DNA from: Fabrea salina
Taxonomy: Eukaryota; Ciliophora; Heterotrichea; Heterotrichida; Fabreidae
Assembly (NCBI GenBank): GCA_022984795.1
Contig: JALIHJ010000076.1
Span: 1 to 64,000 of the forward strand
Direction: 5' to 3'
Length of the DNA stretch: 64,000 nucleotides
Part shown: positions 1 through 58,118 of the stretch, in pieces
Layout of the letters: the number at the start of each line of letters is the position of its first letter
Position numbering within the stretch: the first letter of the stretch is position 1
Made by a program: the position numbers and the translations under genes
Notes under the pieces: generated by a model
The model's input: only the letters and a program-made list of their open reading frames with translations
The model's database searches: none
What the model was told of the DNA's origin: nothing

Positions 1-18
1 TAATCAAGAATTCAATAA

Positions 19-4635: not shown

Positions 4636-4855
4636 CTAATAGTTAATTAGTTGATTCTTCTCAAGAGCTCCTCTAGTAATTTGTACTCTCGGTTGCTTGT
4701 CTGACTTCGTGTATCGCCCTTGCGTTCCTGTCAGTTGCCTTTGTGTTTCTGTCAGCTTCTTACTGACTTGTCTTCTATTTTCTTGGATGTCCTGGAAATG
4801 CCAACTATTTCTCAGGAACAATTCCTTCGTGTACAGGTCCTCTCGTCATATTCAT
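4636..4855 (-). CDS. Small basic hypothetical protein
   Basis: The minus-strand frame from 4821 to the TAG at 4636-4638 encodes about 61 residues rich in Gln, Arg and Thr (DIQENRRQVSKK, TETQRQLTGTQGRY). In the second copy (62721-62942) the same protein is intact for 73 residues from ATG (MNMTKEDLYTKEL). Here, two bases are missing after the matching ATG (4853-4855) near 4843, so one of the copies carries an indel. QENRR recalls the heptad protein nearby, but no family is recognised. No signal peptide or membrane segment. Confidence 0.4.
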
Positions 4856-5232
4856 TTCAGATGGTGGCTCATTTGAGACTTCAGTCTTTTTGGAGACTCA
4901 CCTTCTTTGGTCTGGTTTTTTAAATATTATGAACGATCTAACTAACTAAATAAGATACGTAATTCAAACGCGCAAGATCAGGAAGCACCTAGAATTGATC
5001 AACAATGAGAAGAAAAGACAACTAACAAAGCAAAAACAACTTCTTCATAAGACCAGAAGACACTAATACTATTTGAACATAACCATTCAACCAGATTCAA
5101 TGCAGAACTGAATTCTAACTCGTTGCTCCAAATAGTTACTCCACTGACGACAGAACACAAAGTACTCCTTGGAATTTGATTCGCCATTATGAGTTTAAGT
5201 TTTCGGGTAGGTTCTGAAAACTCAACAATGGA
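4856..5232. other. Intergenic leader of GTPBP1-like gene
   Basis: About 375 bp. It contains a 15-codon upstream frame (ATG 5189-5191 to TGA 5234-5236) whose stop overlaps the GTPBP1 ATG as ATGATG. No other feature is seen. Confidence 0.4.
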
Positions 5233-6588: not shown

Positions 6589-6789
6589 TGTAATTGGTTA
6601 TGTTATATTGTGTAGAACTCAGGGTTGGAGAAGTGCACTTTGATCCCAAAGGCTTTGTGTCTGGTGGTTTGGTTTCGTAGAAGTAATTGGAAACTTAAGT
6701 TTAAACAAGGCCCGTTGTTCCTTGGAAAATCTGCTAAGCTAATAGTAGTGCTTTGAACTATAAATATTGAAGTTGTAGTAACAAATGTA

Positions 6790-38313: not shown

Positions 38314-41300
38314 TATGAAATACAGACAGAGCGCTTCAAACCGTAGTCTAAATACACTCTAAAGGACTCCAACAAGTTCATTCCTTCAAACAAGCCTCTG
38401 AGACCAGGAGTAAGGGGATTGGTGCTCAGAGTTATGTATGAAAGAATCTCTAGGGTGTTCATGAGCTTCCACAAAACTGAAGGATTGGGGTTGAAGAAAC
38501 TGAAAAGAGCCGTGGTAGCTCCTGCCCCTGCAGCTACTGCTTGTGCTTGTTCTCTAGCTTGTTTAGTCATTATTCCAGCTGGGTCGTGTTCTTTAAGTGC
38601 TGTTTGGAGTTCTTGGGTCACTAAGAGGTAGTTGGACTCACTTGTGATGTTGGGAATCAGAGTCAGAGAAACTGTTTCGCCTTCTGCAACGTATGAGTCA
38701 AACTCCATAGTGAAGTCGTAAGTTCTAAGGTCAACCTCCTGAAGTTCATAAGTGTACTTAATGGTTTTATTCTGAACAGAGAACTCAAAACTAGATGGTT
38801 CTAAGGAAGAGTTAAGAGTCTCTGTGAAGCTAAGAGTAAGGGTGTTGTTTTCGTTTGTGAGGTTGGCAGAGAATGTGCCTCTGTTGCAGAACCCGTACTC
38901 TTGAACATAGCCTTGGTTGCACTCACAGGTACTTTCAGTCACCAAAGCATTTTCCACACAACTACTGCACCTTTCATACTCACAGTCCACACACAAGTCA
39001 TTGCCACACAAACTGCAGGTAGAGTTGTTCACACACCCAGAGTAACAGTTAGACCTGCATTGCTCACACTGATTTCCATTCCAAAACTCATCTATGCTAC
39101 ACAAAGGTAAGCACTTGTTTGAGTTGTTAACTGGACAAAACTCACACTCGTTACAACTCTCTAGTAAGTCTCTTAAGTCCACTGCTGAGTTGTAAACCCT
39201 GATCTCCCAAATGAACCCCTCAAAAAAGTTGCCAAAGGTTTCTGAGTGTTTAGCTCCAATAGTGAACAAAAAGTTAGTTTCTGCGTCCACCAACCAGTAA
39301 TCTCCCATGCCCTTTGACAGCACCCTAGTGTTGTTGTAGTAGGTTTCTAGTTTAAACTCAAACTGGTCAAAGAAAGTTTTTACAGTCAGCAAGTTCCAGT
39401 AACTACTTACTCTAGTTTGGGATTGAAAGGACTCATTAAGTTTTAAGTAAACCTGGAAGTCTAAAAGTCCAATCTCTAGGATGTTTGTGAGGTCATGTTG
39501 CTTTGAAAGCAAAACTCCCGATCCAGAGAGTGGTCTAGTCCACATACTCACTGTAAACTCAGGAGCTAGTACTAGCAAAGGTTCTGAAACACCTTTGTAA
39601 GGCGGCAGTTGCATCACTGAAGTTCCTCTGAAGTAGTAACCCCTGTCTTTAGTAGGGTAAGGATCAGTTTCATGGAAGAAGGGGTAAAACTGATCGTTGA
39701 TTCCTGTGAGCACTGGAATTGAGTTTCTGGAGTCTTTCAGTGAGTTCTGCATTGTTTTAAGTGTCAACTGGAACACAAAGTCAGAGATCTCTATAAAGGA
39801 CCCAGTAGAAGAACAAGTGTAACTTGTAGGACACACAGAACTGCACACTCCTTGAACTAAGTACTTGCCTTGGCACTCTATGCACTCAAAAGCCGAAGGA
39901 GAATAACACTCTATGCAGCTTTCAGTGCACACCAAAGAAATATAGTTAATGCCAGGGTCCAGTGGAACAGCATAGTCTCTGCAAGTCATTTGAGGTTGGT
40001 AGTTTCCTTGGATGTAGGACTCTAACTGGCAAGTTATCAAAGTGTCTGAGTTTGTCTGAACTGTGCACTTTGAAGTCCCTATTTTAATCTCGAACTCAGA
40101 TGGGTCTCCAGGAAACTTCTCTCCGTTAATGGTTACTACACCTGAACTCTCAAAGAAGCTTTTAATGACTGGCTGGAAAGAGCAATCCCCTCTACACATG
40201 GTTAGTCTGTTGTCAATCCAAACTCTGAGTTGAGGCTTAGTTTCATAAGTTCTTAAAAAGTCAGAAGGGATCACAAACCAGAACTGGGAGTCTGTTGAGG
40301 CTTCTCGTAAAGTTTCTCCATCTACTTCACTGCCGTCTTTGAGTTTGAATTTTAAATCAGAGGGGCTGGGATTCATGTAGCTAGGAAGAAGAGCGTAAAT
40401 GTAGTTATTGTGGCAGTAGATAAACAAATTGAAGTAAGTTGCACTTGTGTAAGTTTGAAGGACAATTACCAATATCGAACCCATTCAAGATTGCCTTGTC
40501 TTGTCCTTTGTAAACAAATGGACGTTTATTGCTGTTAAGGGTATTAGAGCTCAGGTCCAGTCTTTTGATCAGAGGAAATCCATTTCTTTGACCACTCCCA
40601 GGCATCTCTACTCCCATAACAAAAGAATTGCGCCCTCCCGAGCTTAGGTGCTCTACTTCTAAGTAGTAGGACTCTCCAGCTGTCAAAACTATAGAGTTTG
40701 ACTTATTACCTTCCCATATGAAATAAGTATGCTCGTCTGACTCCTCACTCGAATTAATTATTTCTTGCTTGTTGAGAGGGTTGGAGTCGGTACTCAGATA
40801 AACTCTAACACTCCCTCTGAAAGAAACATAGAATGTATGCTCCCCTGTTCTGGTCGCCCTGAAGAGTCCGTAGATGAGCGAGTCGTAGTTGTCCATGGTC
40901 GTAAGAATAGCTGCTGAAGGAATGACTGTTCTCTGAACTAGTTCACTCTCCACTCGAATGCTTCCTGGGTTGTAAGTTTCCCTGACCAATCCTGCACTTC
41001 CCTCATAGTAGTTTCTGTTCTTCAAATCGAAATAGACTCCACTGCTGCACTTAACAGTGTTGAAGCTCGCTTCTGAGACTTGGCATGGTGATCCATCTAC
41101 TTCTACCTGGACTCTAGAAGTGTCACTAGGAAAGGATTTCCCTGTGACTGTAACAGCTACTCCTTGTTCTAAATTAGCTGACACTGACTCCACAGCACCT
41201 ATAGTTCTGAACCAGTACTGCTCTCCTTCTAGATTGTACCCTGATTTCCAGTAGACTCCTTTTAGCCTACCTGAAGTATTATATTCCACACTCTGGTCCC

Positions 41301-41829
41301 CGTGCACATTATTGCCTACTTGTGCACTAAGAATGTAAGGATTAGAGTTTTCTACATATTCACTCTCGAATATTGCTTCTACTCCGTTTACTTTTAAATG
41401 GTCAATATGATCCTTTTTAATTTCTTTGTGAAGAAAACAAAGGCTAGTAATATCTTGAGCAGTTCCTTCGCTCGGAATCAAAACTAATGCGTAGCCACCC
41501 CAGCCCCACCTTAATTGATTGCTGTCTGGGTATGAGTATATTGAAACGGAGTTGTGCAGCACTTCTAAGTCGGGGTATGACCCATCATCATTGTGGTTCC
41601 AAGGAGGAATGAGGCATTCGATTGTTTCTGCCTCAATAGAAAGTATTTCACACTCACTTGCTCCTAGCCTAACTTGGTAATTTTGAGGGTTCAAATCGTC
41701 TGTAAAGTCCCCTAGTAAAAAAAGGCTGCTTAAACCGTTAAAGCGGTCGGGGTCAATGGTTTTATTATCTGGAGTAGCTATGTTAGTAACCGTCGCTGCT
41801 TGGCATAATTTTAGCAATAGCAAAATCAT
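38313..41829 (-). pseudogene. IPT/PA14/LamG surface protein, truncated before membrane domain (array copy 3)
   Basis: Start ATG 41827-41829 (MILLLLKLCQAATV). Signal peptide, IPT, PA14, spacer domain, second IPT, LamG-like domain and Cys-rich repeats are all present. There is one frame change at about 40465-40480, where the paralogue reads YFNLYVYCHDN; one base too many in CTTAC would explain it. The protein stops at 38313-38315 just after the conserved segment LTPGLRGLFEGMN, so the multi-pass C-terminal domain of the other copies is missing. It could be a secreted decoy form with a single sequence error, or a decaying gene. LamG and Cys-rich parts are closest to copy 1. Confidence 0.6.
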
Positions 41830-41961
41830 ATTTATCACCCGCTTTAACTAGTTAGATGATTAATTCGGGTAATCACACTCAAGTCACTGTTCACTAGAAG
41901 ACAGAAACAAAGTCCACTCTAAAGACCACAGAGTTCAAGAATTGACCTATAACTAATATAA
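41830..41961. promoter_or_regulatory. 132-bp divergent promoter (array copy 3 / solenoid gene)
   Basis: Between divergent ATGs; AATATAA abuts the plus-strand start and GATAAAT the minus-strand start. Confidence 0.4.
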
Positions 41962-44900
41962 ATGTCTGAATCCCTAGGCACTTTCAGAGAAAGCAACGAA
42001 GAAATTTACGACTTAATGAACAACGGAGTTTACAGGTACGACCCAGAAGAGGTCAAAGAAGTCCTTAAAGACAACATCATTTCCAAAAAGTTGTCTAAAC
42101 TGCTCAACTTCTACGAAAAGCCCAACCCACAAAGCAGAGAAAGGTTCCAAAAGTCAGAGATGAACTTAGGAGGCACCCAAACCTTCAAAGAAGTACTTAA
42201 GACCTTTGTAGTTGAGTTGTCCCAGAAAATCGAACTCCAAGAAGAACAAACTTCAGACTTAGTTAGGGTGTTCTTTATAAAGCACCAAGCACTCTTCAAC
42301 AAACTCAAAGGCGAAGAAGGCGACCAGGTCCGAAAAGACTTCCAGGTCCTGTTTAACCCCATCACTCAGTTGTACTACAACGAGCGTATTACTCTTCTTA
42401 AGACTTTAGGAGTCATTGTAGGCACCAGCAGGGCAGAAGGCAACCCAGGACAGCTTCCTTGTCTGGAGTTTTTGGGAGAAGCTTTCAGAGAAAACTCCGT
42501 TGAAAACCTTGTTTGGGAACTTTACTGCCAAACTTCTGCGCGGGAAATTCCCCAACAGGTTTACGCTCCCCAAGAACGCGAAGAGTGGATTCTGCAGTGC
42601 TTGCAAGAACAAAAGGAACTCTTAGAAATCTTAGTTCTGGCCCATAATGCCTTTGCACACATTGGCTCTGCAAGGTTCCTAGACTACCTGCAAACCTTCA
42701 CTAAACAAGAGTTCCAAGGCAACTTCAAACAACTTTACAAAGACTCTTTTTTGGCTGAGTACAAACTAGCCCAGAGACTGCTGATTTCCCAAATAGGAGA
42801 CTTAAGCATGTTTGTGTTGTTGTCTGCAGTGAGACTCGACGCCTTTGCTGAAAGAGGGTTCTTGGAAGGATTCAATCCCCACAAAAACCCTTACAGCTTA
42901 ATTAACAACCAAGAAAACACACCTAAGATCCTTGAGTTCTTCAAAACACTTTTAGAAGGCAATGAGTTTGTGAGTGAACACATGGGATCAGTCGTGGTGA
43001 GTTGGTTGTGCTTGATGACTTGGGCCCAAACCCTTCCTCAAGGCTACACTGTGTTTAGCCCAGGAGACCAAGATCCCGTTCAACAACTAGCCACTAAGTT
43101 CTACGTGCTGGACTTTCTCCGCAACACCACTCAGAGAGAAACCTTCCAGGACTCCTCTTTAGAAGTGGCTTCAGCCCTCAAATACACCCTCATGAGTTTG
43201 GTTTCTGCTGTTCAGTCACAAACCAACGTAGAGATGGCAAAGGACTACGGAGTCTTTGTAGAAATAACTTGTGCTTGTCTCAGGAACCAAGGCTCTTCAG
43301 AAACACTCAAGCACTTTTGGTACGAAGACTTTCCTAACCAAGTAGGCCTCTACTCTATGCTGCACCACCTAAGCATGAAGTTCCCCCACGACGGAGAACT
43401 CTTCCTCAAGTTCGTGAACGTTTTAATAGGCAACTCTGAGAACCCCTACGCCGAAGAAGTCATCAAGTACCTAGACACCCTAACTCACTTCACTACAGTG
43501 GTGAACTTTGAGGAAGTGATGTCTAACCCAGACCAAAGCTCTGAGTACGAGTTCGTGGCTGCAAGCCAACTAGTGTCTTCTACCAACCAAAGAAACATGA
43601 TAATAATTCCAGGCAGGACCAGAGCTAAAAAGCTTGGAGAGCAGGGCAGAACTCGACTTTTAGTGAGTTTCAACATCAGGTACTCTTTCTGGCCTTTTGT
43701 GTTTAACTACTGGGAAACAGAAGTCCAAAGGATCAAAAACGGGTACCCCTACACCACTCAGGACTTAAAAGTTTTGTTCGAGTACATCAAACTAGTTTGC
43801 GAAGTAGTCATGATTGACCCCTCTGTGACTCCTGCCTTAGAAAAGTTCGGCTTAAGGGAACCTGCAAACCACCCTTCAGAAGTCCACGTTACCCGAAGAA
43901 CTCCTGAAGTCCCCAAGACCGAACTAGTTTACTTACTGATAGAGTCCTTTATAGAGCTTTCGAAGCTGACAAACACTCCTTTAGAAGTCCTTTCAGAACT
44001 AATAGAAACCACTCTGGCAGTTTACGCAAGTGAAAACAAAGAAGTAGAGAACCACGCAGTTGCTACTGTTTTAGCGAGGGTTTCAGCTGAAAGGCACGGT
44101 ACAAGGGGGATATTCCACTCACACCCCCTGTTTCTTTCAGCAAGCAAACTCAGAAGCGTAGAAAAAGAAGCTGAAAGGTACAACGTAAGTTTAGCAATGA
44201 TGGAGTTGGTGTCCTACATCTTGGAAGACGAAGCTGTGCTGCTTCTGTACCCACTTGAAGACTCTGTTGTGATCCAGGAGTCCCTTAAGTTCGGCTTAAC
44301 TGAAGTTTTGCCTGAGTGTTTTTTGTGGCCTGACAACTACAAGTGGCAAGCTGCAAACTTAACTTTGAAGTTCCTAGAAAACTTGGTCTCTAAGTACTTC
44401 AGGTTCGTCAAACAAAAGCCTCCTTCTTCCAACCAAAGGAACTCCTTACTGAGTTTAATCACTACCCAACTTAACAAAGTTGACTGTGCACAGTTTATCT
44501 TGCACTCCTTAAGGGTGTCTCACTACTTAAACGAACTTGAAGAAATGGTTTTTGAAAACGTGCACTGGACCTACGCTACCAAGAAGCATGAGTTCCAAGC
44601 CGAAGACCTCAGAAGCATCAAAACCATGGTTTTCAGGGGACTGAGTTTGCTTAAGTTAGTTACTGAACTAATCATTTACACAGAACAACTTCCCCAAGAG
44701 CACGGACTAGACTTTCTGCACTTGATTCGTGAAATGAAGTCAGCAGTTCTGCAGACTCTGAGTGAAGACTCCCTTCCTTTAGTGACTGCTTTGATGTCTT
44801 ACATAGACTTTGCCTTTGAGCTCTCCTTAGTTGAAGAAACCCAAGAAAACATTGCTTTGGTTGCTTTGGAAAACATCAACTTGTTTGTGATTATTTGGAA

Positions 44901-47616
44901 GAACTCAGTCCAAAAACCCGCCTTTGAAAACTTCTTCTCTTCAGGCACACAAATGATCAAAGACAACTTTTTGAAGCACTGTTCTGAAAGCATTCTTGAA
45001 AAAAAAACCAACAGTTCAGTGCAGCTGCAGCTAGGCATGCTGGAACTCCTTGTTAGCTCTTTGCCTTACCAAGTGTCTTTTTGCAACTCTTTGTTTGCTT
45101 CTCAGAACTTCTCACAGGAGTTCACCCTAGTTGTAGAAGCTTACAAAATGCTTCCGAGAGAAGAGTCCAGCACTGAAAAGATGCAACTTTTAGAGCACTA
45201 CTTGTGTTTTTATGAACAGTTAGTTCTTTGTGAGCACAACTACTCCATTTTGGAGTCTTTAATTGGGTCCAAAGAAAAGCTGATTTCTTCGTTTATAGAA
45301 GCTGTCAACAAAATGTTTTCTGAAACCAAAGAACCTTCTGGGTTCGAAGCTTGTGTGTGCATGCACTGTTACTCACTTGTGTTCAACTTACTTACTGTGT
45401 GCCACCACCAAAACCCCAAGTTCTCAAACGACTCCCTTGAGTTGGTGTTCAGAAGCCAAGTACTGGCTAAGTTCCTTAAGTTGGGAGTGAAGAGTTGCTT
45501 GACTGAAATGACTCTCTACAGAATGCAGGAAGCCAACAACAAACTGGCAGACTGCAACACCGACCTTGCTTTGGAAGACTTTGCTGTAAGGCAACTCGAC
45601 GACTCGCCCAACTGGAAGTTCTTTGAGTGCAACTCCAACCAGTACGGCACTAAGTTCCAACTCGACAGTTTAAGAATGACTTTGGCTCTGGAAATGTGTG
45701 GAGTGCCTGCTTCGTTTTTGGGAGACTTGATTAGCATTGCAGAAACTTACAACGTCGAAACTTCACTATTGGACTGCCAAGAGCTTATGATGGACAGTTT
45801 CAAAAAGCTGTTTGGAGTGCTTTCGAGTTATGGAACTAAAGGAGAACCACTTACGGGCCTGCCAGTTCCTTGGCACTTTGAAGAAACCAAACAAGTTAAG
45901 TTCGTGGTGGGGTCCCAGGGTCCTGAAGCTTCAGCAGAGTGTTTTAGAATACTTACAGTGGTTGTGGAGAGTTTGTGGTTGGACACCAAAAAAGAACTCA
46001 ACATCTTTGTAGACTTAGTGAGGAGGAACTTAGAACACAGGTACCAGATTTTGAGTTTTTGCTACAACTTAGCTTTGCACATAACTACTGACTCCAAAAA
46101 CGAAGCTGTTGAAAGAGCTAAGGACGAGTTCTTCAACTGCTCAATTAAAGTCCTTGCTGAAATGCACGAGTTCCTTGGCCAAGTCCAGTTCTTGAGTCCA
46201 GACTTACTTACTTTGCTGATCCTCATGGAAGGATTCTTTTTAAGATCTGCAGAAATCCAAGGACGTCCAGGCCAGTTTGTAGTTTCAATGATTCCTCAAC
46301 TAAAAAGGTTCTTAGTAGCAGACAGTCCTTCGTTTGCACTGTTGATAGCTCTGATTACTGAAAGTTTGAAGTTCATGAAAACAGAAGACTACCCCTACAT
46401 CTTCAAGAACTTAGGCGTCACCAGAGTGCTTTTTGAGAAAATCATGAACCCCCGCTGCACTCACCAAGACTTCTTAGCTGCCATTAAGTTCTGCCAAGCT
46501 TACTCCAGCAACAAGCAGTGTGCCAGACAGCTTTTGTCAGAACGCATTTTGGTCCAGATCTCGAACTCCCCAACTATCAAGGACTTCCAAACTGAGTACG
46601 AAGGCAAGCACAAAAACCCCAAACACATTCTGTGGTGCTGGGTTCTGTGGATGATGAACGGCATGCACGACACTCTTTTTGACGACAAAGCTTTTCTTAA
46701 CCAAGTAATGGACTTTCTGAACTCTTACTCTGAAAGAGTCACTAAAGTCCTTAGGTTCAACTACGTAACAGAAGGCAGGTACGGAGGCCACATTGCTAGT
46801 AGCAAGCAGTTTTCTCTGGCTTACGTGGAGGAACTCCAGCTCCTAACTAGTTTGCTGGCAAAGCTTTCTTCGAACTCAAAACTGTGGAGGTCTTCCCACA
46901 AGAACTCATTGGAGTTGTGGCTCAGTGAAGCTATGCAGCACACCTTCAGGGCCTTTTCTTCACAGGCAGAGACTCTCCAGAACTTCCCACCAATTTCTAT
47001 GAATGAAGACGCCTTAACAGCTAAAACAGTCAGTGGAACTCCCGAAACACCTACCAGAGTGTCTCACTCAGAAGAAAGAGTGACTATTTTTGACAGAGTC
47101 CAAACTACTTACTACGAATACATCCCTAAGTCCCAACCTTCAGGATTTTCTTTCAGTATAGAAAGTGGATTACTGCGTTCACTATACAATTTAATTACGG
47201 CTTTGATACAACAAGCCCAGTTCGACAAACACGTGCCTTTCCCCAACAGCACTTTACTTGACTCCTGCAAGTTTGTGTTGCTGTACTACACAAAACTTAA
47301 GGCCAACCACAACATCTACTCAGAACTAGAAAAACTAGCCAACTCTTTGATCAAAAGTGCAGAGTTTTCGCTTGCTTACGGTTCACTGAACCACCTCTTC
47401 GAACTAGACTTGGAGAGTCAACTGCAGATGGCAAAAGAAAGTTTTGAAATGAGTTTTTACTACTTTTTGAAGTCAGACTTAGCTACGAAGAGCGAACTTA
47501 AAGCAGAAGCACAAGGAGTGTTAACTGGGTGGATTGGCCAAGTCGAAACTTCAACCTCAAGACACGAGCCAGAAGACCCCTTTATAGCTTGGATGCAAGA
47601 ACAAGTTAGAGTTTAA
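41962..47616 (+). CDS. Giant alpha-solenoid protein, Nup205/Nup188-like
   Basis: 1884 residues in one unbroken frame, almost wholly alpha-helical, without membrane segments or enzyme motifs. Length, helical-repeat character and an early helix pair (NPITQLYYNERITLLKTL) resemble the Nup192/205 and Nup188 inner-ring scaffold nucleoporins, where a comparable YQERL-type helix occurs; the middle segment SFNIRYSFWPFVFNYWETEV and the long C-terminal helices fit too. Assignment rests on architecture more than motifs; another HEAT-repeat scaffold is possible. The stop is followed after six bases by the next ATG. Confidence 0.5.
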   Translation: MSESLGTFRESNEEIYDLMNNGVYRYDPEEVKEVLKDNIISKKLSKLLNFYEKPNPQSRERFQKSEMNLGGTQTFKEVLKTFVVELSQKIELQEEQTSDLVRVFFIKHQALFNKLKGEEGDQVRKDFQVLFNPITQLYYNERITLLKTLGVIVGTSRAEGNPGQLPCLEFLGEAFRENSVENLVWELYCQTSAREIPQQVYAPQEREEWILQCLQEQKELLEILVLAHNAFAHIGSARFLDYLQTFTKQEFQGNFKQLYKDSFLAEYKLAQRLLISQIGDLSMFVLLSAVRLDAFAERGFLEGFNPHKNPYSLINNQENTPKILEFFKTLLEGNEFVSEHMGSVVVSWLCLMTWAQTLPQGYTVFSPGDQDPVQQLATKFYVLDFLRNTTQRETFQDSSLEVASALKYTLMSLVSAVQSQTNVEMAKDYGVFVEITCACLRNQGSSETLKHFWYEDFPNQVGLYSMLHHLSMKFPHDGELFLKFVNVLIGNSENPYAEEVIKYLDTLTHFTTVVNFEEVMSNPDQSSEYEFVAASQLVSSTNQRNMIIIPGRTRAKKLGEQGRTRLLVSFNIRYSFWPFVFNYWETEVQRIKNGYPYTTQDLKVLFEYIKLVCEVVMIDPSVTPALEKFGLREPANHPSEVHVTRRTPEVPKTELVYLLIESFIELSKLTNTPLEVLSELIETTLAVYASENKEVENHAVATVLARVSAERHGTRGIFHSHPLFLSASKLRSVEKEAERYNVSLAMMELVSYILEDEAVLLLYPLEDSVVIQESLKFGLTEVLPECFLWPDNYKWQAANLTLKFLENLVSKYFRFVKQKPPSSNQRNSLLSLITTQLNKVDCAQFILHSLRVSHYLNELEEMVFENVHWTYATKKHEFQAEDLRSIKTMVFRGLSLLKLVTELIIYTEQLPQEHGLDFLHLIREMKSAVLQTLSEDSLPLVTALMSYIDFAFELSLVEETQENIALVALENINLFVIIWKNSVQKPAFENFFSSGTQMIKDNFLKHCSESILEKKTNSSVQLQLGMLELLVSSLPYQVSFCNSLFASQNFSQEFTLVVEAYKMLPREESSTEKMQLLEHYLCFYEQLVLCEHNYSILESLIGSKEKLISSFIEAVNKMFSETKEPSGFEACVCMHCYSLVFNLLTVCHHQNPKFSNDSLELVFRSQVLAKFLKLGVKSCLTEMTLYRMQEANNKLADCNTDLALEDFAVRQLDDSPNWKFFECNSNQYGTKFQLDSLRMTLALEMCGVPASFLGDLISIAETYNVETSLLDCQELMMDSFKKLFGVLSSYGTKGEPLTGLPVPWHFEETKQVKFVVGSQGPEASAECFRILTVVVESLWLDTKKELNIFVDLVRRNLEHRYQILSFCYNLALHITTDSKNEAVERAKDEFFNCSIKVLAEMHEFLGQVQFLSPDLLTLLILMEGFFLRSAEIQGRPGQFVVSMIPQLKRFLVADSPSFALLIALITESLKFMKTEDYPYIFKNLGVTRVLFEKIMNPRCTHQDFLAAIKFCQAYSSNKQCARQLLSERILVQISNSPTIKDFQTEYEGKHKNPKHILWCWVLWMMNGMHDTLFDDKAFLNQVMDFLNSYSERVTKVLRFNYVTEGRYGGHIASSKQFSLAYVEELQLLTSLLAKLSSNSKLWRSSHKNSLELWLSEAMQHTFRAFSSQAETLQNFPPISMNEDALTAKTVSGTPETPTRVSHSEERVTIFDRVQTTYYEYIPKSQPSGFSFSIESGLLRSLYNLITALIQQAQFDKHVPFPNSTLLDSCKFVLLYYTKLKANHNIYSELEKLANSLIKSAEFSLAYGSLNHLFELDLESQLQMAKESFEMSFYYFLKSDLATKSELKAEAQGVLTGWIGQVETSTSRHEPEDPFIAWMQEQVRV

Positions 47617-47622
47617 TTAAAA

Positions 47623-48204
47623 ATGATTTGGGTGATATTGGTTTGTCTAGGAGCAGCCCAAGACGCTTCACAGGAATCCAGCAACTTTGACCTGGAGTCC
47701 CAACTTGAAAAACGGTCTCTTTGGTTCACTTGTTTGTCTGTGGTTAGGAGTGCTTACGAACGCGACTCAGAAACAATCCAAAAAGTAGCCCAAGAAAACA
47801 ACTTGCCTGAAGACCGTTTGCAACACAAAGTGATGGCTGACGTTCTGCTGAAGTGCTCGAATTCCTTGAGCAACCAAAAAGTTGAAGAGATCCTAAACAC
47901 TGAAAACCTAGACCTAGAAGACCCTGAAGTTAAAGAAGCAAGTCAGGTAGACCTGCAGAGTTTCAGTAACGAAGAGGACTTAGAACTCACTGAAGAGCAA
48001 CTGAAACTTTTGGACGACATCAACTGGGAGCTCAAAAAAGCACAACAGTTTGTTCAAGCAAATGAAGAACTCCAAAACCAAATAGGCATTCTTCCAGCTC
48101 CTGTTTACTATGGAAGTTTGGTGTTTGGGATGATTTTTCTGTTTGGGTTGTTCTTTTTAGGTATAAAGTTACTTAGCCAAAAGCCTAAAAAAAAGAAAAA
48201 GTAA
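47623..48204 (+). CDS. Small type I ER membrane protein
   Basis: 193 residues. Signal peptide (MIWVILVCLGAAQ), a helical acidic lumenal part with two Cys, one membrane helix near the end (YYGSLVFGMIFLFGLFFLGI) and a short tail ending PKKKKK. The terminal lysines fit a dilysine ER-retrieval signal (K at -3 and -4). No family recognised. The ATG lies six bases after the solenoid gene's stop. Confidence 0.65.
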   Translation: MIWVILVCLGAAQDASQESSNFDLESQLEKRSLWFTCLSVVRSAYERDSETIQKVAQENNLPEDRLQHKVMADVLLKCSNSLSNQKVEEILNTENLDLEDPEVKEASQVDLQSFSNEEDLELTEEQLKLLDDINWELKKAQQFVQANEELQNQIGILPAPVYYGSLVFGMIFLFGLFFLGIKLLSQKPKKKKK

Positions 48205-48246
48205 TTAAGCACTCTAGAAGTAATAGGTTAAAGTACCTGTACATAT

Positions 48247-49675
48247 TCACACTTGCGAAAGAACAATGTGCTGGAATTCTTTTAAGTCGATTTCCCCGTC
48301 CCCGTTTTGGTCCACTAACTGAATGAATTCTTCCCAAACTTGCTGGTTGCACTTGTTATCTCCTTGAAGTATTTTCTGGAGTTCTTCTGAGGAAATACTT
48401 CCACTTCCGTCTCTGTCAAACACTTTAAAGGCTTCGTTTAAGTTTTCTTCTGAAAGCACAGTTCCAACGTTGAAGCTTCCTTTTAAAAACTCAGTGTAGT
48501 CTATGAACCCACTGCAGTCTGCATCAAGCTTTCCAAGGACTTGGTTAGCAAGTTCAGAAGCTGCTTCAGAGTCCACTAACTTAAAACTACTTTCAAGTTC
48601 TTCAAAGTCAAGTTTTCCGTCCCCTTTGGAGTCAATAGCTCTGAAGACCTCCCTAGCTTTTCTTAGTTCTGGAGCAGACATGCACTGGGTGGCAATGAAG
48701 GTGTAAACTGCGTCTTTCAGTTTGTTGTCTACTTTGAAGTTCTGTAAGTTCTTTAGGGTGCTAATGATTTCTTGGTTACTCGAGTTGCTTTGAAAACTGT
48801 TTTGGAGGATCCACTTGTGACCAAGGGCTTCTTCTGCAGAGTACCTTTCACTTACAGGACAAATCAGCTTACCCAGCAGTTCCTTAGCTTCTTCTGACAC
48901 TGCAAGTCCTTTTAAACTGCTTGGAGTTACCTCGGAGGGAAAAACTCCACACAAAAGAGAGTACATCACTACACCTGCACTCCAAATGTCGCACTTTTCG
49001 TCGTAGTCCTTGCTTAGTACTTCCGGAGCTAAGTAAACAGAGTTGTTTACCACTTCAAAAATATCCTCAGAAGTACCTTCAGTGACTTTGCAAGCAAGAC
49101 TTAAGTCTATGAACTTAACGTTGAAGCAGTCCCGCGAACTCTCTACAAGAACTGACCCAGGACACACGTTCCGGTGCATAATGCCCTTTCCGTGCATATA
49201 AGCAAGGGCTGAAAAAATGTGCTTCATTGCCTGGGAAGCTTTAGGTTCAGTAAAGCCTTTCTTTTTAAGTATTTCTTGGTGCAGTTCAGTTCCTCTGCAG
49301 AACTCCAAAACCACGTAAAGTCTTTTCCAGTCCTCAAAGAACTCAAAAATCCGTACCACGTTAGGGTGGTCTATTATCTTCATTATCTGGATCTCGCGTT
49401 CTACTTGGCACCGCAGCATTTCAGAAGTTATCTTTTTCTTTTCTGTAAACTTTCACAGCACGTTTGCGTCCAGTTTCTCGGTGGAAGCAAGCTCTGATCT
49501 CTCCAAAAGCTCCTTTAGACACTACGTGGGCTATTCTGTAAACTTCTTCGAACTTTTTGGAGTTTTCTTGGATGAAGCACCCTGCTAGTACCTGGAGTTG
49601 GTCTGCTTTTTCTACTTGGTTGACTTCAGGTTCCTGTTCTATGTACCTGCGTTTTGTCGAGACCGAACAGCCCAT
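48247..49675 (-). CDS. CDPK-type protein with degenerate kinase site and four EF-hands
   Basis: Start ATG 49673-49675 (MGCSVSTKRR) offers a myristoylation/palmitoylation signal. The kinase domain has a glycine loop (KGAFGEIRACF) and the ATP-binding lysine (RAVKVY), but HRDLKPEN reads HRNVCPGSV and DFG reads DLS: the catalytic Asp, Lys and loop Asn are all changed. APE is kept (LAPEV). Four EF-hand loops follow (DSKGDGKLDFEE, DADCSGFIDYTE, DRDGSGSISSEE, DQNGDGEIDLKE), all with ligand residues. A calcium-binding pseudokinase scaffold at the membrane is inferred. The frame shifts by one base in an A/G-rich run at about 49430-49443 (RKEK then ITSEMLRC), most likely a homopolymer sequence error. 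Confidence 0.85.
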
Positions 49676-49746
49676 CTTAATATTCCAATGGAAATAAAAG
49701 TCAACTCCCACTCGGCCAGAAGACCCAAAACAGTTAGGTGCAACTT

Positions 49747-50412
49747 ATGGTAGGGTTTACTTAGTCACCAAGAATTCGGAACTGCCTCACTTCCAATCCA
49801 CCAAAAGCGCTGTTCCAGAACAGGCACAAAACCCACTGCTTTCAAACCACCGCCTAAAAGGAAACCCAAGCAACCCCCTTTGAAGTTCCAAGCTGTCCAA
49901 GACGAAGACGGACGCGTTTCTTGCAGACGCTGTGGAAGGAAGTTCGCCCCTGATAGAATCACCAAGCACGAAACAGTTTGCATAGGACCTATTAACCAAA
50001 ACCCCAAAAAGCTTCTTCCTGTTGCAAAGAAGAAACCAGTTAAGTCTGGAATGCCACTTTGGAAACAACAGCACCTGGACTTCATCAACTCAGTGCGCTA
50101 CGCCAAAAGATGGACCGAGTTGAAAAGAAGGGAGGCGACCTTAGAAAAGTCGCACCTCCTCCCCAGTTCCACGATCCTACCCAGCACTACAAGCAGTGTC
50201 CTTACTGCTCTCGAAGGTTCAACCCTGATGTTGCCCAAAGGCACATTCCTAAGTGTAAAACCACCATCAACAAACCCAAACCTCCTCCCAAAAGCAACCC
50301 CAGACCCCAAGTCAAGCCTGTGAAGCCTTCGCCCCAAACTCGGTGTAGGGTTTGCCGCAAACAAATCTCAGTCAATGCACGAATCTGTGGATCTTGCGGA
50401 GCTAGGCGATAA
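49747..50412 (+). CDS. ZC2HC1: ZC2HC1-family zinc-finger protein
   Basis: Two C2HC fingers: CRRCGRKFAPDRITKHETVC and CPYCSRRFNPDVAQRHIPKC, with the family linker WKQQHLDFINSVRYAK between, then a Pro/Lys-rich stretch and a C-terminal CRVCRKQISVNARICGSCG ribbon, as in animal ZC2HC1A/B. The likely start is ATG 49747-49749, followed at once by a 15-nt intron. The frame slips in the A-run at 50103-50107 (one A short) and once more between 49765 and 49880; both are probably sequence errors. The exact function is unknown; ciliated-cell expression of relatives suggests a ciliary link. Confidence 0.75.
49750..49764 (+). other. Candidate 15-nt intron right after the start codon
   Basis: GTAGGGTTTACTTAG, directly after ATG, ending in an in-frame TAG. 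It matches the MFS intron at 12 of 15 bases, including GTA, TTTA and TTAG blocks. Confidence 0.65.
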
Positions 50413-50440
50413 AGTAATAACCATATTCTGTTATTATCTA

Positions 50441-53400
50441 ATGTTTGAAGACTTGTTTATTGAAGAGGGAGAAGAGGACTACATGGTTCTGTCAAGCGAA
50501 GCTCCTAGACACTCCAACTTAGCAGAAACCCAACCAACACCTCCTAACCCCAGAGGCTACTCTAGTTTGTGTGGACTCTACAACCAAGGCACTACCTGCT
50601 ATCTGAACTCAGTGATCCAGTCCATGTTTATGACTCCTGAGCTCAGGAAAGCCGTGTTTGAGCTTCCACTTTGTGAAGGCAACTTAGAAACCCCCAGCAA
50701 CTGGGTGCCTTCTGGACAGAAGCGAGAAATCTTGCTGGCCTTACAAAGACTTTTTGTGGAGATGCAAACTTTAGACGTAAGTGCTTTGTCCACACAAGAC
50801 CTGACTGCTAGTTTCAGGTGGACAGGTGACGAAGTGCTTATTCAGCACGACGTGCAAGAACTCAGTAGGGTTCTTTTTGACGCTATTAACCGTTCACTGA
50901 GCGGCACTCCTTACCAAGACTTGATTTATAACTTATACAAAGGAACTGCTTGCAACCAAATCATTTGCAAAACCTGTGGAACTATCAGGGAGATCGAAGA
51001 GGAGTTTTGGGACTTGTTGCTTCAAGTAAGTGGGTTTTCTTCGCTTACTCAGAGTTTAAGGTCCTTAGTGAAGTTTGAACTGCTGCACGGAGACAACCAG
51101 TACTTCTGTGAAGTCTGCAACTCCAAAAGCGACGCTGAAAAAGGCTACAAGTTAAAACAAATACCACCTATTCTGACTTTTTCACTGAACAGGTTTGAGT
51201 ACGACCTTCAAACTTTAGAGCGCAAAAAGGTAACTAAGAAGTTTGAGTTTCCTTTGGAGTTAGACATGCAGGAGTTCCTAGGTCAAGAGTCTAAGTACGA
51301 ACTGTTTGCTGTAGTCATTCACATTGGAAGTGCGCACTCAGGCCACTACCATGCTTACATCAGAGACTTACTAGGAACTGGAGTTTGGGAGCCAGTTACA
51401 GAAGAGTCTAAAGAATTCCAAGACTTGCAAACTGAACTCTCTAACGAAGAACTGCACCAAAACTGGTTTGACTTCAACGACACATCTGTGACTCCCATTA
51501 AATCAGGAAAGATTCCTAAGCAGTTCGGAGGCCAAACCGAAACAGCTTACATGCTTATTTACAGAAAGGCTTCCCAAAACACCACTGCAGAGTTGCCTAG
51601 GGTTCCAGAGTACTGGGAACCTGTAATTGAGAACCTAAATCAAACTTACAAAAAGTCCCGCGAAGAGTACGAGGAACTTAAGAACTGGATAGAAGTCCAG
51701 GTCCAGCCAGCAGAGTTGTTTGCCTTTGAAGATGGACTTGTGAGGTACCTGGACACTCAAACTAAACTTACGGACCAAGGAGTTTCTGTCAAAGCCAGAG
51801 TTAGCTTTACTGTTTCCGAGTTCAAAGCCAAGGTCCAAGAACTGTTTCCGAAGGACTTGCTTTGGAATAACTACTTTTTGGTGGAGGGAATTCCCTTGAG
51901 CAACAAGTACTTCCACTTAATTAGGAAAATTGACTTGGAAGAAACAGTGTCTTTGCAAGAAGCTAACTTCAGTCACAAGTCCTGCTTTTTGCTGGTGCCT
52001 TTCAGTCCAGACCCAAATGTAGCTGTTGCGCTGGAAAATATTGGAGAAGAGCACGAACCCATCACCATTAACTTGGTGGTGTTTGACGAAAAGCAGCCCA
52101 TCACAGTCAACAAAGGCTGGACTGTGGAGTACTTGATGCTGAAAGTAATGGAACTCTCAGGGCTCTCTCCAGACACACAAACACTCAGGATGCTCAAAGG
52201 CTACAGTGAGGACAGAGACATCTTTCCCAACGAATACAGCAAAACCCTCCACAGCTTAGGGTTCTACCACTCAATGAAACTGAGTGTCAAACTTAAAGAA
52301 GAAGAGTTCCCTGGACTCCCAGCAGCACAGTCTGAGTCCAGCGATAAAGTAACAGTGCTGGCTAACTACGAAGAAGACCCTAACAACGTTGTCCAGCACT
52401 GGGTTTCTCTCAACTCAAGAATCAAAAACCTGGTTAAGGAACTGAAGGAAGTTTTTGAGTTGCCCAACAACCAACCTGTAAGACTTAAGTCACACATCAG
52501 AAACGCTTACTTCACCCAAGAAGAAATGAACCTTAAACTCAAGAAAATCGAAGAGTTCGACGACGGAGGCTACAGAGTTACTGTGGAAAAGGGAGAACCG
52601 CCCCACACGGGGGAAATGGTGCTCCAGATAGCTTTTGAACCTGACGAAGACCCCAAAGAAATATTTGTGTCTCCCAAAGACAAGTTTTCAATGATAAAAC
52701 CCAAAATTGAAGAAGCTTTAGGGATTGACATGAAAAACTACAAAATTTACAGAACAGACTGGCTCAGAGAACCCATTTCGGTGCTTAAAAACGAAGAACA
52801 AACACTCCAAAAAGCAGTGCTTAAAGACGCTGATCTTCTACTGATAAAGCCTTTAGACGAAGTGCTTGCTACAGAAATGGTTAAGTTGAACCTGTTCATC
52901 TCAAGAACAGGAACGCCTGGAGACTGCAAACCCTTAGCAGACATTTCAGTTAACGAAGAAACAACCTTAGCTGAACTCAAAGAACAAGTTTTTAACCTGC
53001 CTGAAGTCTACCAAGAAGACAAAACTCCCAGTCAAATACGCATTAGGGAACGCACCAACACTTACTGGTTCGGGAAGGTTTACAGAGAAGACTCTAAGTC
53101 ACTTAAGAAACTAAACATAGGCTTCGGAGCAACTTTAGTAGTGCAGTTACTCAACTCTCCAGACACTTCTTCCCAAACAGCACTTCACTTGTTCGTGGCT
53201 GAAAGACTTGTTGAACAAAAAGAGATTGGACCCATGGTTAGTTGTGTTTTTGAAGGAGGACCCACACCCAACGTAGACAAACTTTACAAGTTCTGCCTTG
53301 AGACTCTTGGCAAGGACTGGAACCTCCGGGATGTTACTTTGGCTAAGTTCATTGCCCACAAGTTCGAGTGGCAAGTAATTGAGGACCAAAGAGACCCATC

Positions 53401-53665
53401 TGAAAAGGGGTCTTTGCTTAACCAAGTTAAGGCTGCCAGAAGTGCCCAAGGCATCTACAACCTGCGTAAAGGACCCTTCCAACTCAAGGACGGGGACCTA
53501 ATTGCGCTTAGAAACGAACAACTCAACATTTCTGGCCAGGACGACTTTCAGTGCGTGAGTGACAAGAAGAAGAAGGAAGAGTACCTTAAAAACAAAAGAG
53601 AACAACACGAAGAAACTGCTCCACAAAGACCTGAACGAGCAATCAAGATCGGCGACTTTAACTAA
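50441..53665 (+). CDS. USP40: Ubiquitin-specific protease USP40-like
   Basis: 1074 residues from ATG 50441 (MFEDLFIEEGEEDYMV). The Cys box GLYNQGTTCYLNSVIQSMF, QHDVQEL, the zinc-ribbon pair (CKTCG, CEVC), the His box FAVVIHIGSAHSGHYHAYI and the Asp in WFDFND are all intact, so it should be an active deubiquitinase. The long C-terminal part contains several ubiquitin-like folds; the end (LRDVTLAKFIAHKFEWQVI, then LKDGDLIALRN and a final IKIGDFN) parallels USP40 rather than USP47. It starts 28 bp after ZC2HC1 on the same strand. Confidence 0.9.
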   Translation: MFEDLFIEEGEEDYMVLSSEAPRHSNLAETQPTPPNPRGYSSLCGLYNQGTTCYLNSVIQSMFMTPELRKAVFELPLCEGNLETPSNWVPSGQKREILLALQRLFVEMQTLDVSALSTQDLTASFRWTGDEVLIQHDVQELSRVLFDAINRSLSGTPYQDLIYNLYKGTACNQIICKTCGTIREIEEEFWDLLLQVSGFSSLTQSLRSLVKFELLHGDNQYFCEVCNSKSDAEKGYKLKQIPPILTFSLNRFEYDLQTLERKKVTKKFEFPLELDMQEFLGQESKYELFAVVIHIGSAHSGHYHAYIRDLLGTGVWEPVTEESKEFQDLQTELSNEELHQNWFDFNDTSVTPIKSGKIPKQFGGQTETAYMLIYRKASQNTTAELPRVPEYWEPVIENLNQTYKKSREEYEELKNWIEVQVQPAELFAFEDGLVRYLDTQTKLTDQGVSVKARVSFTVSEFKAKVQELFPKDLLWNNYFLVEGIPLSNKYFHLIRKIDLEETVSLQEANFSHKSCFLLVPFSPDPNVAVALENIGEEHEPITINLVVFDEKQPITVNKGWTVEYLMLKVMELSGLSPDTQTLRMLKGYSEDRDIFPNEYSKTLHSLGFYHSMKLSVKLKEEEFPGLPAAQSESSDKVTVLANYEEDPNNVVQHWVSLNSRIKNLVKELKEVFELPNNQPVRLKSHIRNAYFTQEEMNLKLKKIEEFDDGGYRVTVEKGEPPHTGEMVLQIAFEPDEDPKEIFVSPKDKFSMIKPKIEEALGIDMKNYKIYRTDWLREPISVLKNEEQTLQKAVLKDADLLLIKPLDEVLATEMVKLNLFISRTGTPGDCKPLADISVNEETTLAELKEQVFNLPEVYQEDKTPSQIRIRERTNTYWFGKVYREDSKSLKKLNIGFGATLVVQLLNSPDTSSQTALHLFVAERLVEQKEIGPMVSCVFEGGPTPNVDKLYKFCLETLGKDWNLRDVTLAKFIAHKFEWQVIEDQRDPSEKGSLLNQVKAARSAQGIYNLRKGPFQLKDGDLIALRNEQLNISGQDDFQCVSDKKKKEEYLKNKREQHEETAPQRPERAIKIGDFN

Positions 53666-53709
53666 CGAACTTTTGGTAATAGTTAAACTGGTGTATCTGA
53701 CATATTTTA

Positions 53710-55367
53710 ATGATTTGGCTGTTGCTAGTTGGAGTTTGTCTAGGTGATGAAAAGACCCACACTTACACTAAAGGAGAGGAAGTGGTTCTTTGGTTCAACA
53801 AGTTAGCCCCTGTTAGCAACCCCCAAGAAACTTATAGTTACCAAGAAGTGCCGCTTTGCACCGGCAGTAAGAAAAAACACCTTTACTCCTTAGGACTAGG
53901 TGAAGCTTTGGAAGGCAACAAACTAACAGATAGTGGACTGGACATCCAGTTCCTTGAAAACACCCACAAACAAAGGTTCTGCACCAAAAGGCTTCTGGAC
54001 TCTGAAGTTTCCAATCTTGCAAGTATGATTGCAAGGTCTTTTTGGCTGCAAATGTACATAGACGACTTGCCTATTTGGACAGAACTAGGGAAAGTTGACA
54101 AGTCGACAGGGGACGTTTACATATTTACTCACTACAAAGTGTTGATATCTTTTAACCATGAAAACATCATACAAGCCCAAGTCCACCCTGACTCTTTGCA
54201 GAAGATTTTTGACGCAAAAACCAAGTCAGGTGTTTTAAGTTCACTGGAACTGCACTACTCAGTTTCTTGGCTGTATACAACTATGCCTTTTTCCAGAAGG
54301 TTTGAAACTTACCTAGACCCGGGCTTTTTCGAAAACAACATCCACTGGCTTTCGATTCTGAACTCCTTGCTTATGGTGCTGGTGCTTTGTGGAACTGTAG
54401 GACTCATTGTTTGGAAGACTGTTAAAAAAACTCTTCTTGGGAAGACTTAGAAGACTCTAACTTTTGGAAGAAAACTGCAGCTTTAAAACCTCCTAAGCAC
54501 CTGGAACTGTTCACAGGACTCTACAGTTCTGGAGCCCACATACTAGGAGTGGCTTGTGTAGGACTGGGGGCTTGTGTAGTGCACCCTATGTACGCCCAAA
54601 GAGGAATGCTAACAAGTATTTTGTTGGCAGCTTATACTCTTTTAGGTGTGCTGGGGGGGTATGTTTTTTCTTACTTTTACTGCAGCAACGGAGGCACTAA
54701 GTGGGCAGCCACTGGGCTTTACAGTATGTTTTTGTTTCCAAGTGTAGGAGTGCTGAACTGGTTTCTGTTGCCTAACGCAATTTGGGTAGTTGCTGGAGTT
54801 GGAGTGTTTTACGTTCCCTTGTTTGTAGTTGGTGCTGTGGTTGGACGTGTTGTTTCAGTTAGCATTCCAACTAAGAAGCACTCCTTTTTGCCTTCTCCTT
54901 CAACTTTAACTACTAAGCCTTGGTACTCCAGTCCGGGGTTTTTGGTGGCTTTTGGAGGAGTGCTACCTTTTGGGTCGATTTCAGTGGAAACTTACTTTAT
55001 TTTTACATCTTTTTGGAATTACAAGTTTTACTATGTTTACGGGTTTGCAGTGTTGGTGTTTTTGATACTGGTTCTGTGTTTAGTTTGCGTTTCGATAGTT
55101 GCCACTTACATTACTTTAAGCAACGAAGACTACAGGTGGCACTGGGCGAGTTTTTTGAGCAGTGGAAGTGTAGGAGGTTACCTTTTGCTTTACTCGTGTT
55201 ACTACTACTTGTTCAAAACCCAAATGGAAGGTTACTTGCAGACTGCTTACTACTTCGGAGCCACTGGAGTTCTGAGCTTTGCCACATTTTTGGTAGCAGG
55301 AGCAATCGGGTACTCTGGGTCACTTTTGTTCGTCAACAAACTATTTAAGGACGCAAAGAATGACTAA
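53710..55367 (+). CDS. TM9SF3: Nonaspanin TM9SF3-like protein
   Basis: Signal peptide (MIWLLLVGVCLG), then a lumenal domain typical of TM9SF3 (GEEVVLWFNKLAPVSNPQET, FWLQMYIDDLPIW, YSVSW, DPGFFENNIHWLSILNS), then nine membrane helices with PPKH, LPFGSISVETYFIFTSFW and YYVYGF motifs, ending GYSGSLLFVNKLFKDAKND. These proteins sort membrane cargo in Golgi and endosomes. The frame breaks once at a seven-A run (54424-54430): one more A restores the family sequence WEDLEDSNFWKK, so it is probably a homopolymer undercall. Confidence 0.9.
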
Positions 55368-55378
55368 CTTAATAATAA

Positions 55379-56335
55379 ATGCTTAGCCGACGCGGAAGTG
55401 CAAGTCCTTGTCAGGATGTGATTTTCGAAGCAGCAGAGGACCTTTACAGCAACGCTACTTTAGTTTTCACAAAAGGAGCCCACAAAAGAATCCAGTTGAC
55501 TCGGCCTCGAGTAGCTTCCTCGTACTGTTACGAGTTCTGTGGAATGGTAGGCGTTCCCTTTTCAGCTCTAAGGTTCACTCTAGACTCAAGGCCTCTCAAC
55601 ACAGAGTCTTACTTGTTAGGACCTTGTATCATTAAAGTCCACCACTCCTGTGACATCCTCCAGAGTTCACAAAACTCACTCCAACCTGCTTTGCTTGACT
55701 TACTGAGCACTGGACTCCAAGCTGACGTGCAAATCAAAACCCGGGACTCTGTTTTTTACGCACACAAGTGCATCTTAATGTGCAGGTCTGCTAAGTTCAA
55801 AGCTATGTTTTCTAACTCCATGTCTGAAGCTGACACTTGCTTGGTGGACTTGGTTGAGACAAGTTCTTTTCTCTTTGACAAGTTACTTAAGTGGATTTAC
55901 ACAGGAAGTGCCATTATGCCTGAGAACTGGTCAGAGGTTTGTGACTTACTCGTTATGGCAGACGAATACTTCTTAACTGACTTGAAGATGCGCTGTGAAG
56001 AAGACTTAGTTTCTAAGCTCAGACCTGACAACTTAATTGAACTTATGGTTATTGCTCACCAACTGCCCTTGCTCAGCAATACACTCATTAACGAATGCAA
56101 AGAAATGTTTGTGAAAGAATTCCCCAAAATCCGGGACTCCAACCCCAACTTAGAAGAAATGATCAGTTCTGTTCCTGGACTCATGACTGAACTCTTTTCT
56201 AGGTTCCACAGAGTCTCCAGCAAAGCCAGGAAGAGAAGAGTGACTTTCCGGATCAACGAAGACATAGTAGACACTCTAGACGACGTGTCGACAATAAACT
56301 CAGGGTACTCCTCCACAGCTAGTTCTTTTGCGTAA
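55379..56335 (+). CDS. BTB/POZ-BACK protein
   Basis: 318 residues. A basic N-terminal region of about 100 residues is unassigned. The BTB domain spans about 115-215 (ADVQIKTRDSVFYAHKCILM, FKAMFSNSM, LLKWIYTGS), followed by BACK-like helices. Such proteins dimerise and often recruit cullin-3 ubiquitin ligases. The C-terminal tail is Ser-rich. Start ATG 55379 follows TTAATAATAA. The TAA stop abuts the stop of the convergent channel gene. Confidence 0.85.
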   Translation: MLSRRGSASPCQDVIFEAAEDLYSNATLVFTKGAHKRIQLTRPRVASSYCYEFCGMVGVPFSALRFTLDSRPLNTESYLLGPCIIKVHHSCDILQSSQNSLQPALLDLLSTGLQADVQIKTRDSVFYAHKCILMCRSAKFKAMFSNSMSEADTCLVDLVETSSFLFDKLLKWIYTGSAIMPENWSEVCDLLVMADEYFLTDLKMRCEEDLVSKLRPDNLIELMVIAHQLPLLSNTLINECKEMFVKEFPKIRDSNPNLEEMISSVPGLMTELFSRFHRVSSKARKRRVTFRINEDIVDTLDDVSTINSGYSSTASSFA

Positions 56336-57472
56336 TTAATGTATTATAGAGATTTCGTCAGGGAACTCCAGTTCTACAGAAATGCTCTTCATAGACTCCA
56401 CCCACTTCCTCCAGTAGTCCAGAATCTTCTTTTTTTGCCTGTCTTCCATGATTAGCAACCCCAAGGGAACTAGTTGTTTGTCTAGGCGAGTTTTCTTTTT
56501 CTGAGTTTGTTGAGTTTAAGAACTACTTCATGTTCTTTTTGGTTTATGTAGTTCTTCACGCCTCTGTTTGCTCCTTTTTTAACGTTTCTGCCGAAATTCC
56601 TTTTAAAAACTGCGTAAAGCACGTCGTTATAAAACAAATACCCTTCTGAATTCACTTTTAAGTCCATAGCTAACAACACCTTCCAAACTGCTTCATAAGG
56701 CTCATCTGTGGTTACTCCTAGTTCGGAGCCTACTTCGTACATAAGTTCAGGAAGTTTTTTGTAGTGAATTACGCACTCTTTTGTGGGTTCTGAGTTAGCT
56801 TTCCAAGCAGTTTTGAATTCCTTACTGAGGGCCACAAACACTCTAAAAATGCTTTCGGGGTTCGTTTTGTAGTCCTCGTAACTCTGAACTACTACCATCA
56901 AAAAGATGTTTAGCATGATGAAACTAGTCATCATCACAAAGCTTAAAGTAGACTAAGCACACTGAGTAACTTCTGTGCTCCATAGTGTCAAACATCACAT
57001 GGTGCCAGTTTTCTCCAGTAGCAACTCTGAAAAGGGCCAGCACTGCCATTCCGAAGTTGTCGAAGTTAGTGTACTCGTCCAGCTCCTTACCTCGGACTCC
57101 GTAAAACAAGTGGGCACCTAAGATTGAGTAAATGATCAGTATTAGTGTAAAGATCGACAGCACGTTTAAAATCCCTGGAAGGGAGTTGTAAGCTACGATT
57201 GAGATTCCTTCAATTGAATTGAACAGCTTCGCAGCCTTAAACAGTCTGAAAGCCCTGAAAGTCCTCAAAGCCAAAAGCAACTGAGGTCCTACCCGAATCA
57301 TTTCGGTTTCTTCCCCAATTGAGTAGTTCAGAATTAAGTCCACCACTGAACAAACCACCACAAACAAGTCTAAGGAGTTCCACTTTTGCTTGAAGAACTT
57401 TTTAAACCCCAACCCAATCACTTTGATGACTACTTCAGAAACCAACACAAAAGTAAAGGCCAAGTTCAGGAG
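56336..57472 (-). CDS. Cav/NALCN-like voltage-gated cation channel, C-terminal part only
   Basis: The last repeat of a four-domain channel: S2-S3 (SVVDLILNYS), S4 with spaced arginines (LLLALRTFRAFRLFKAAKLF), S5, a pore loop ALFRVATGENWHHVMF and S6 (FIMLNIFLMVVVQSYEDY), then a cytoplasmic tail with an EF-hand-like fold. The pore Glu in ATGENW is the calcium-selectivity position of Cav channels. The frame breaks near 56941 and near 56495, both repairable by one base in short runs. The last 38 codons end in TAA 56336-56338. The N-terminal three-quarters are missing: the gene is cut at the telomere array. Confidence 0.8.
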
Positions 57473-58077
57473 TAACACCCTAACACCCTAACACCCTAAC
57501 ACCCTAACACCCTAACACCCTAACACCACCACCCTAACACCCTAACACCCTAACACCCTAACACCCTAACACCCTAACAACTCAACACCCTAACACCCTA
57601 ACACCCTAACACCCTAACACCCTAACACCCTAACACCCTAACACCCAACACCCCACACCCTAACACCCTAACACCCTAACACCCCAACACCCTAACACCC
57701 TAACACCCTAACACCCTAACACCCTAACACCCTAACACCCTAACACCCTAACACCCCTAACACCCTAACACCCTAACACCCTAACACCCTAACACCCTAA
57801 CACCCTAACACCCTAACACCCTAACACCCTAACACCTAAATACCCTAACACCTCTAACACCCTAACACCCTAACACCCTAACACCCTAACACCCTAACAC
57901 CCTACCCTAACACCCTAACACCCTAACACCCTAACACCCTAACACCCTAACACCCTAACACCCAAACACCCTAACACCCTAACACCCTAACACCCTAACA
58001 CCCTAACACCCTAACACCCTAACACCCTAACACCCTAACACCCTAACACCCTAACACCCTAACACCCTAACACCCTA
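57473..58077. repeat. Telomere array (CCCTAACA)n
   Basis: About 75 units of an 8-bp repeat, C-rich on the plus strand, with scattered irregular units (CCACCACCC, CTCAACACCC, CTAAATACCC, CCTACCC) of the kind raw long reads give. A C-rich plus strand belongs at the left end of a chromosome, so it caps the sequence to its right (58078 onward), not the truncated channel gene to its left. CCCTAACA is a heterotrich telomere sequence. Confidence 0.95.
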
Positions 58078-58118
58078 TGCATCAAGAACTACCAATCAAG
58101 TTAATCAAGAATTCACAA

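Follow-up and report, generated by a model that had tools for sequence, protein, structure and literature searches.

A probable chimeric join behind an internal telomere array in a Fabrea salina contig

The window analysed here spans the first 64,000 nucleotides of contig C77 (67,077 in total), from a Fabrea salina assembly of 18,328,466 bases (18.33 Mb) in 103 contigs, and it contains an internal telomere array whose junction with the preceding DNA, at 57472/57473, is very probably an assembly artefact produced by a chimeric read, whichever step did the joining and with amplification included among those steps. We reach this reading because the sequence interrupted by the array continues differently in a second contig, C90, because the copy beyond the array is of poor quality, because differences between the two contigs rise just before the junction, and because the same assembly holds other joins at telomere tips, which seem to have been made without inserts. 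The junction most likely has no biological importance and marks a misjoin. Left uncorrected, it and its counterparts would leave later work with a telomere that is falsely internal, a channel gene cut short and genes present twice; in contig C18, bacterial-looking DNA would pass as part of a ciliate chromosome.

The junction and the DNA on either side

The anatomy described in the first-pass annotation holds: a 605-bp telomere array lies inside the sequence, its strand orientation caps the piece to the right, the left-hand piece stops inside a channel gene with no telomere of its own, and the right-hand piece repeats the start of the window. Telomeres in this assembly consist of (CCCTAACA)n, and the internal array has a period of 8, 76 copies and 94% matches (TRF). 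No G occurs between 57473 and 58077, and the array therefore has one strand orientation along its entire length. No TGTTAGGG array was found on the left-hand piece at the junction, where the sequence breaks off within an Ion_trans channel gene (Table 1). The contig itself starts at a natural chromosome end that lacks its telomere, 24 bases inside the telomere boundary of the right-hand copy.

Contig C90 shows how the interrupted sequence continues. Positions 759-15948 of C90 match C77 42290-57473 at 99.75% (15158 of 15197 columns), and C90 then extends past the junction point; the two contigs belong together across this 15.2-kb overlap. With window positions 55500-57472 as query, the matches were C90 13972-15947 at 100% (rounded), the query itself and two weak partial matches. 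Where C77 enters the telomere, C90 runs on in different sequence, and an uninterrupted frame of 1662 codons (C90 14811-19796, minus strand) spans the junction point and contains four Ion_trans stretches (Pfam domain, E 1.6e-214). The window retains only the last part of this gene, in two minus-strand frames (56485-56952 and 56927-57487) broken by an indel. The true sequence thus goes on elsewhere without the junction and with the frame open, as expected of an artefact. Of the two observations that, according to the first-pass annotation, would together tell against a real junction, namely at most one read across 57473 and a channel gene that runs on into different sequence, the 1662-codon frame in C90 provides the second. 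Differences between C77 and C90 number 8 in the last 1683 bases before the junction and 5 in the preceding 12,500 (p 3e-5), a rise of the kind expected if coverage dropped on the approach to a wrong join. We take the contig up to the junction as true chromosome sequence; our checks of it against second copies covered 42290-57472 (in C90), 1-9004 and 40138-48643.

The right-hand copy differs markedly in quality from the left. Positions 58102-67077, the last of which is the contig end, align to 1-9004 with 8802 of 9058 columns identical (97.2%), a match over 9 kb that we judge to be far beyond chance. The alignment contains 120 mismatches, 86 of them transitions, and 136 gapped columns across the 9 kb, and errors of the right-hand copy are present in 18 of 18 full 500-base bins. 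The left copy has 8 stop-to-stop frames that reach 150 codons, the longest of 749 codons, and the right copy has 1 (166 codons). The piece past the junction therefore combines low consensus quality with the loss of long frames, as an artefact predicts, and it looks uncorrected. A circle or concatemer predicts a second copy equal to the first, which is seen in contig C17 (discussed below) and not in C77. A divergent allele or an old duplication as the source of the right-hand copy was ruled out because the differences wreck the reading frames.

These observations suggest how the contig may have arisen. The natural telomere tip of a molecule from the left end of the chromosome would have become attached to a second molecule, whose broken end lay at 57472, most likely, we infer, by ligation during library making or through two molecules being read as one. 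The assembler would then have extended through the chimera, giving chromosome 1-57472, the telomere and a poorly corrected chromosome 1-9004 in succession, probably on the strength of one or a few chimeric reads. True reads stop at the tip, so that no true read would contradict a chimera running past it, which may be why the surviving chimeras lie at tips. Natural DNA ends may be a general trap of this kind.

Table 1. Features of the window and telomere-tip joins in the assembly
Feature	Contig	Position	Strand	Remark
Contig body, taken as true chromosome sequence	C77	1-57472		42290-57472 equals C90 at 99.7%
WD40-repeat gene adjoining telomere, 461 codons	C77	22-1404	-	two copies in C77 owing to the join
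Candidate alternative telomere addition site	C77	40138		(CCCTAACA)n caps right-hand piece, C90 36788
Candidate alternative telomere addition site	C77	48643		(TGTTAGGG)n caps left-hand piece, C90 45255
3' part of four-domain cation channel gene	C77	56485-57472	-	cut by junction, indel-split in window
(CCCTAACA)n telomere of right-hand molecule	C77	57473-58077	+	tip at 57473
Second, error-rich copy of chromosome left end	C77	58078-64000, on to 67077		97.2% identity to left copy
Tip join	C77	57473		partner: own chromosome, ends at 57472
Tip join	C90	35800		partner: piece of same chromosome, window 40138-48643
Tip join	C17	291210		partner: own contig 285711-286322
Tip join	C18	about 289091		partner: 2.06 kb, 56-76% GC, bacterial-looking
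Tip join	C19	285526		partner: multicopy subtelomeric element
Tip join	C24	4127		partner: noisy piece of C14 190948-193936

Telomere-tip joins elsewhere in the assembly

Joins of this type recur in the assembly. We looked for array tips preceded by other DNA with three patterns and by reading some contig ends; one of the patterns gave 89 places, mostly errors within terminal arrays as judged by eye. The six tip joins in Table 1 are a lower bound, because the search was not exhaustive and the joins in C90 and C18 came from routes other than the pattern searches.

In three of the six (C77, C90 and C17), the partner comes from the same chromosome as the tip, each time in direct orientation. The tail piece of C90 matches its partner region in 8281 of 8575 columns and carries a telomere of the opposite orientation at its far end (45255-45681). 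In C17, the DNA attached to the right telomere tip is a copy of the contig's own interior from about 5.5 kb upstream, identical at 610 of 612 positions; this second copy appears better than single-read quality, and C17 is the best candidate if any of the self-joins is real.

Other tips are joined to unrelated DNA, as expected if such joins can be artefacts. Contig C24 starts with a telomere, then a noisy copy of C14 190948-193936 and then a second telomere of the same orientation. The insert is 90% identical to C14 (2653 of 3053 aligned columns in a separate alignment), and its longest frame has 139 codons versus 331 in C14; on this evidence, the start of C24 is two molecules joined. In C18, the right telomere tip is followed by a high-GC tail (C18:289095-291149) that has no second copy in the assembly. 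One 100-codon frame of this tail, compared by tblastn with a collection of bacterial and archaeal genomes only, has at least 472 relatives among at least 594 candidate stretches, and the best 80 of these are 51-61% identical and come nearly all from Rhodobacteraceae or other alphaproteobacteria. The frames of the tail overlap across the two strands and reach at most 218 codons; none of the seven compared with Pfam found a match. Judged by its GC content, the lack of a second copy and the tblastn scan, the tail is probably a contaminating chimera with Rhodobacteraceae-like DNA; a true transfer is unlikely, as the stretch occurs once, at a contig end and past a telomere tip. Unless it is such a transfer, C18 shows that tip joins can be made artificially in these data. 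The sixth case, C19, has two same-orientation telomere arrays around a 1.4-kb multicopy subtelomeric element (within C19:285078-287000) that has 43 matches in the assembly, itself included.

The sequence at the tips indicates what was joined. Among 64 contig starts examined, a set that excludes C77 and C90 with their non-telomeric starts, 60 are telomeric (59 by a script rule, C31 by eye) and four, C3, C17, C37 and C87, are not. Starts with a regular first repeat begin with AACACCCT in 16 of 42 cases, against an expected 5.25 (p 2e-5); 22 right ends were tallied, and 6 of the 19 regular ones have the permutation AACACCCT. The tip arrays at the C77 and C90 joins begin AACACCC, the commonest permutation at telomeric contig starts, and the natural tip therefore seems to have been joined directly, with no insert. 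The arrays start with ACACCC in C18 and C19 and with TAACAC in C17; in C24 the array starts with ACACCC or as many as four bases before it, those four being common to C14. Where the true continuation is known, the bases shared at the join number 1 in C77, 0 in C17 and 4 in C24 (by eye); an overlap of 0-4 bases does not single out any one joining mechanism.

Weighing the alternatives

The first-pass annotation offered a chimeric read, the untrimmed overlap of a contig treated as circular, and a real circle or concatemer, and it argued that an end joined to itself points to topology rather than to a random chimera. The chimeric read is the best supported of these. The self-joining is a genuine observation, in C77, C90 and C17, but the inference drawn from it is weakened by the joins in C18 and C24, and further by the contig start, which lies 24 bases from a telomere end whereas a circle could have been opened anywhere, and by the uncorrected look of the repeat. 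The self-joins nevertheless weigh against an artefact: with random partners, it is very unlikely that three contigs would each rejoin their own chromosome. Under length-weighted random partners the probability is about 3e-7, a figure reckoned after the fact and from a biased sample, since C77 was the contig under study and C90 came to light through the overlap between the two. The remaining four joins comprise one self-join (C17), one to another contig (C24), one to bacterial-looking DNA (C18) and one to a multicopy subtelomeric element (C19). The second copy in C17 also tells against an artefact, being too well corrected for a single read. An amplified rDNA or RNA-rich minichromosome was considered as the cause of self-joining and set aside, as no Rfam family reached the gathering score in the window.

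Chimeric reads of the kind we favour are described for ligation libraries. At least 1.7% of reads are reported as chimeric with one 2D ligation kit (PMC5600009), and averages of 0.61% and 2.26% are given for two groups of ligation data sets, where the chimeras include same-chromosome ('gapped') as well as cross-chromosome joins and inverted repeats are the commonest type (PMC13141652). The joins here resemble these in placing two molecules in one read and differ in that the self-joins are direct. Palindromic reads from a missed adapter were rejected because both copies are in direct orientation. Chimeras could also form during whole-genome amplification, a route that we count within the artefact reading and consider possible though unlikely. 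The polymerase would run off the telomere end, and the free 3' end of the G-strand would re-prime on another displaced strand from that chromosome and continue copying. Because amplification favours rejoining of the same molecule, as in the intramolecular rearrangements described for MDA (PMC1855051), it would account for C77, C90 and C17 and would explain the self-joins better than ligation does. Yet more than 85% of the MDA chimeras in that report are inverted, whereas all three self-joins here are direct, and more than 70% use 2-21 bases of complementarity, compared with the 1, 0 and 4 found here.

Two further explanations were weighed. In one, the repeat is the untrimmed overlap of a contig assembled as circular, with no chimeric read required; the match between the end of C77 and its own start does begin exactly at base 1. 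Some read must still link 57472 to the tip, with at most 1 base shared, and C90 continues differently from the same point. We regard this explanation as unlikely because the contig starts at a natural chromosome end rather than at an arbitrary point, and, taken with the other observations, we give it almost no credence. In the other, broken macronuclear chromosomes were joined in the cell, tip to break, as circles or head-to-tail dimers. Three direct self-joins are what circles would require, and the second copy in C17 is well corrected, but the bacterial-looking partner in C18 and the other-contig partner in C24 suggest that joins in this assembly are artificial, the right-hand copy in C77 looks uncorrected, and the second piece of C90, ending in its own opposite telomere, leaves no simple circle as assembled. 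We therefore consider a real molecule very improbable, and it is equally doubtful that tip-to-break joining of same-chromosome copies is frequent enough to enter an assembly. If such joining did occur in the macronucleus, it would mean that natural telomere tips are not fully protected from end joining. Extrachromosomal circular DNA is described in Oxytricha, where excised germline-limited elements were verified by circular-DNA sequencing, 2D gels and inverse PCR (PMC6765146). Head-to-tail junctions there likewise appear as chimeric reads; unlike those germline-limited elements, the joins here are known from the assembly alone.

Candidate telomere addition sites

The chimeric-read interpretation of the C77 junction leaves a different class of internal telomere to be considered. 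The tail of C90 contains an 8.5-kb piece of the chromosome with a telomere on each side, in capping orientation, while C77 is uninterrupted at both places, as expected of telomere addition at internal sites. By eye, the bases shared with the repeat number about 5 at 40138 and about 2 at 48643. The insert in C24 is similarly capped, at about C14 190947. All three resemble alternative telomere addition sites, and the evidence for each is a single error-rich stretch. Blepharisma stoltei provides a parallel: its telomere repeat is the same CCCTAACA, 1.3% of its HiFi reads are reported to be bounded by telomeres at both ends, and 46,705 candidate alternative telomere addition sites (ATASs) are listed for Blepharisma, 38,686 of them with a single read (PMC9942806). 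The internal telomeres here are comparable, and the C90 tail piece resembles one of those doubly capped molecules. The array at 57473 is unlike them: it caps the right-hand piece and touches 57472 with its tip rather than its base, and thus was not added to the channel gene.

The chromosome end at the start of the window has one further feature. The first 2.4 kb, which include a WD40-repeat gene adjoining the telomere, have 74 matches in the assembly, self included, and many of these fall close to contig ends, indicating a WD40-repeat gene family near telomeres.
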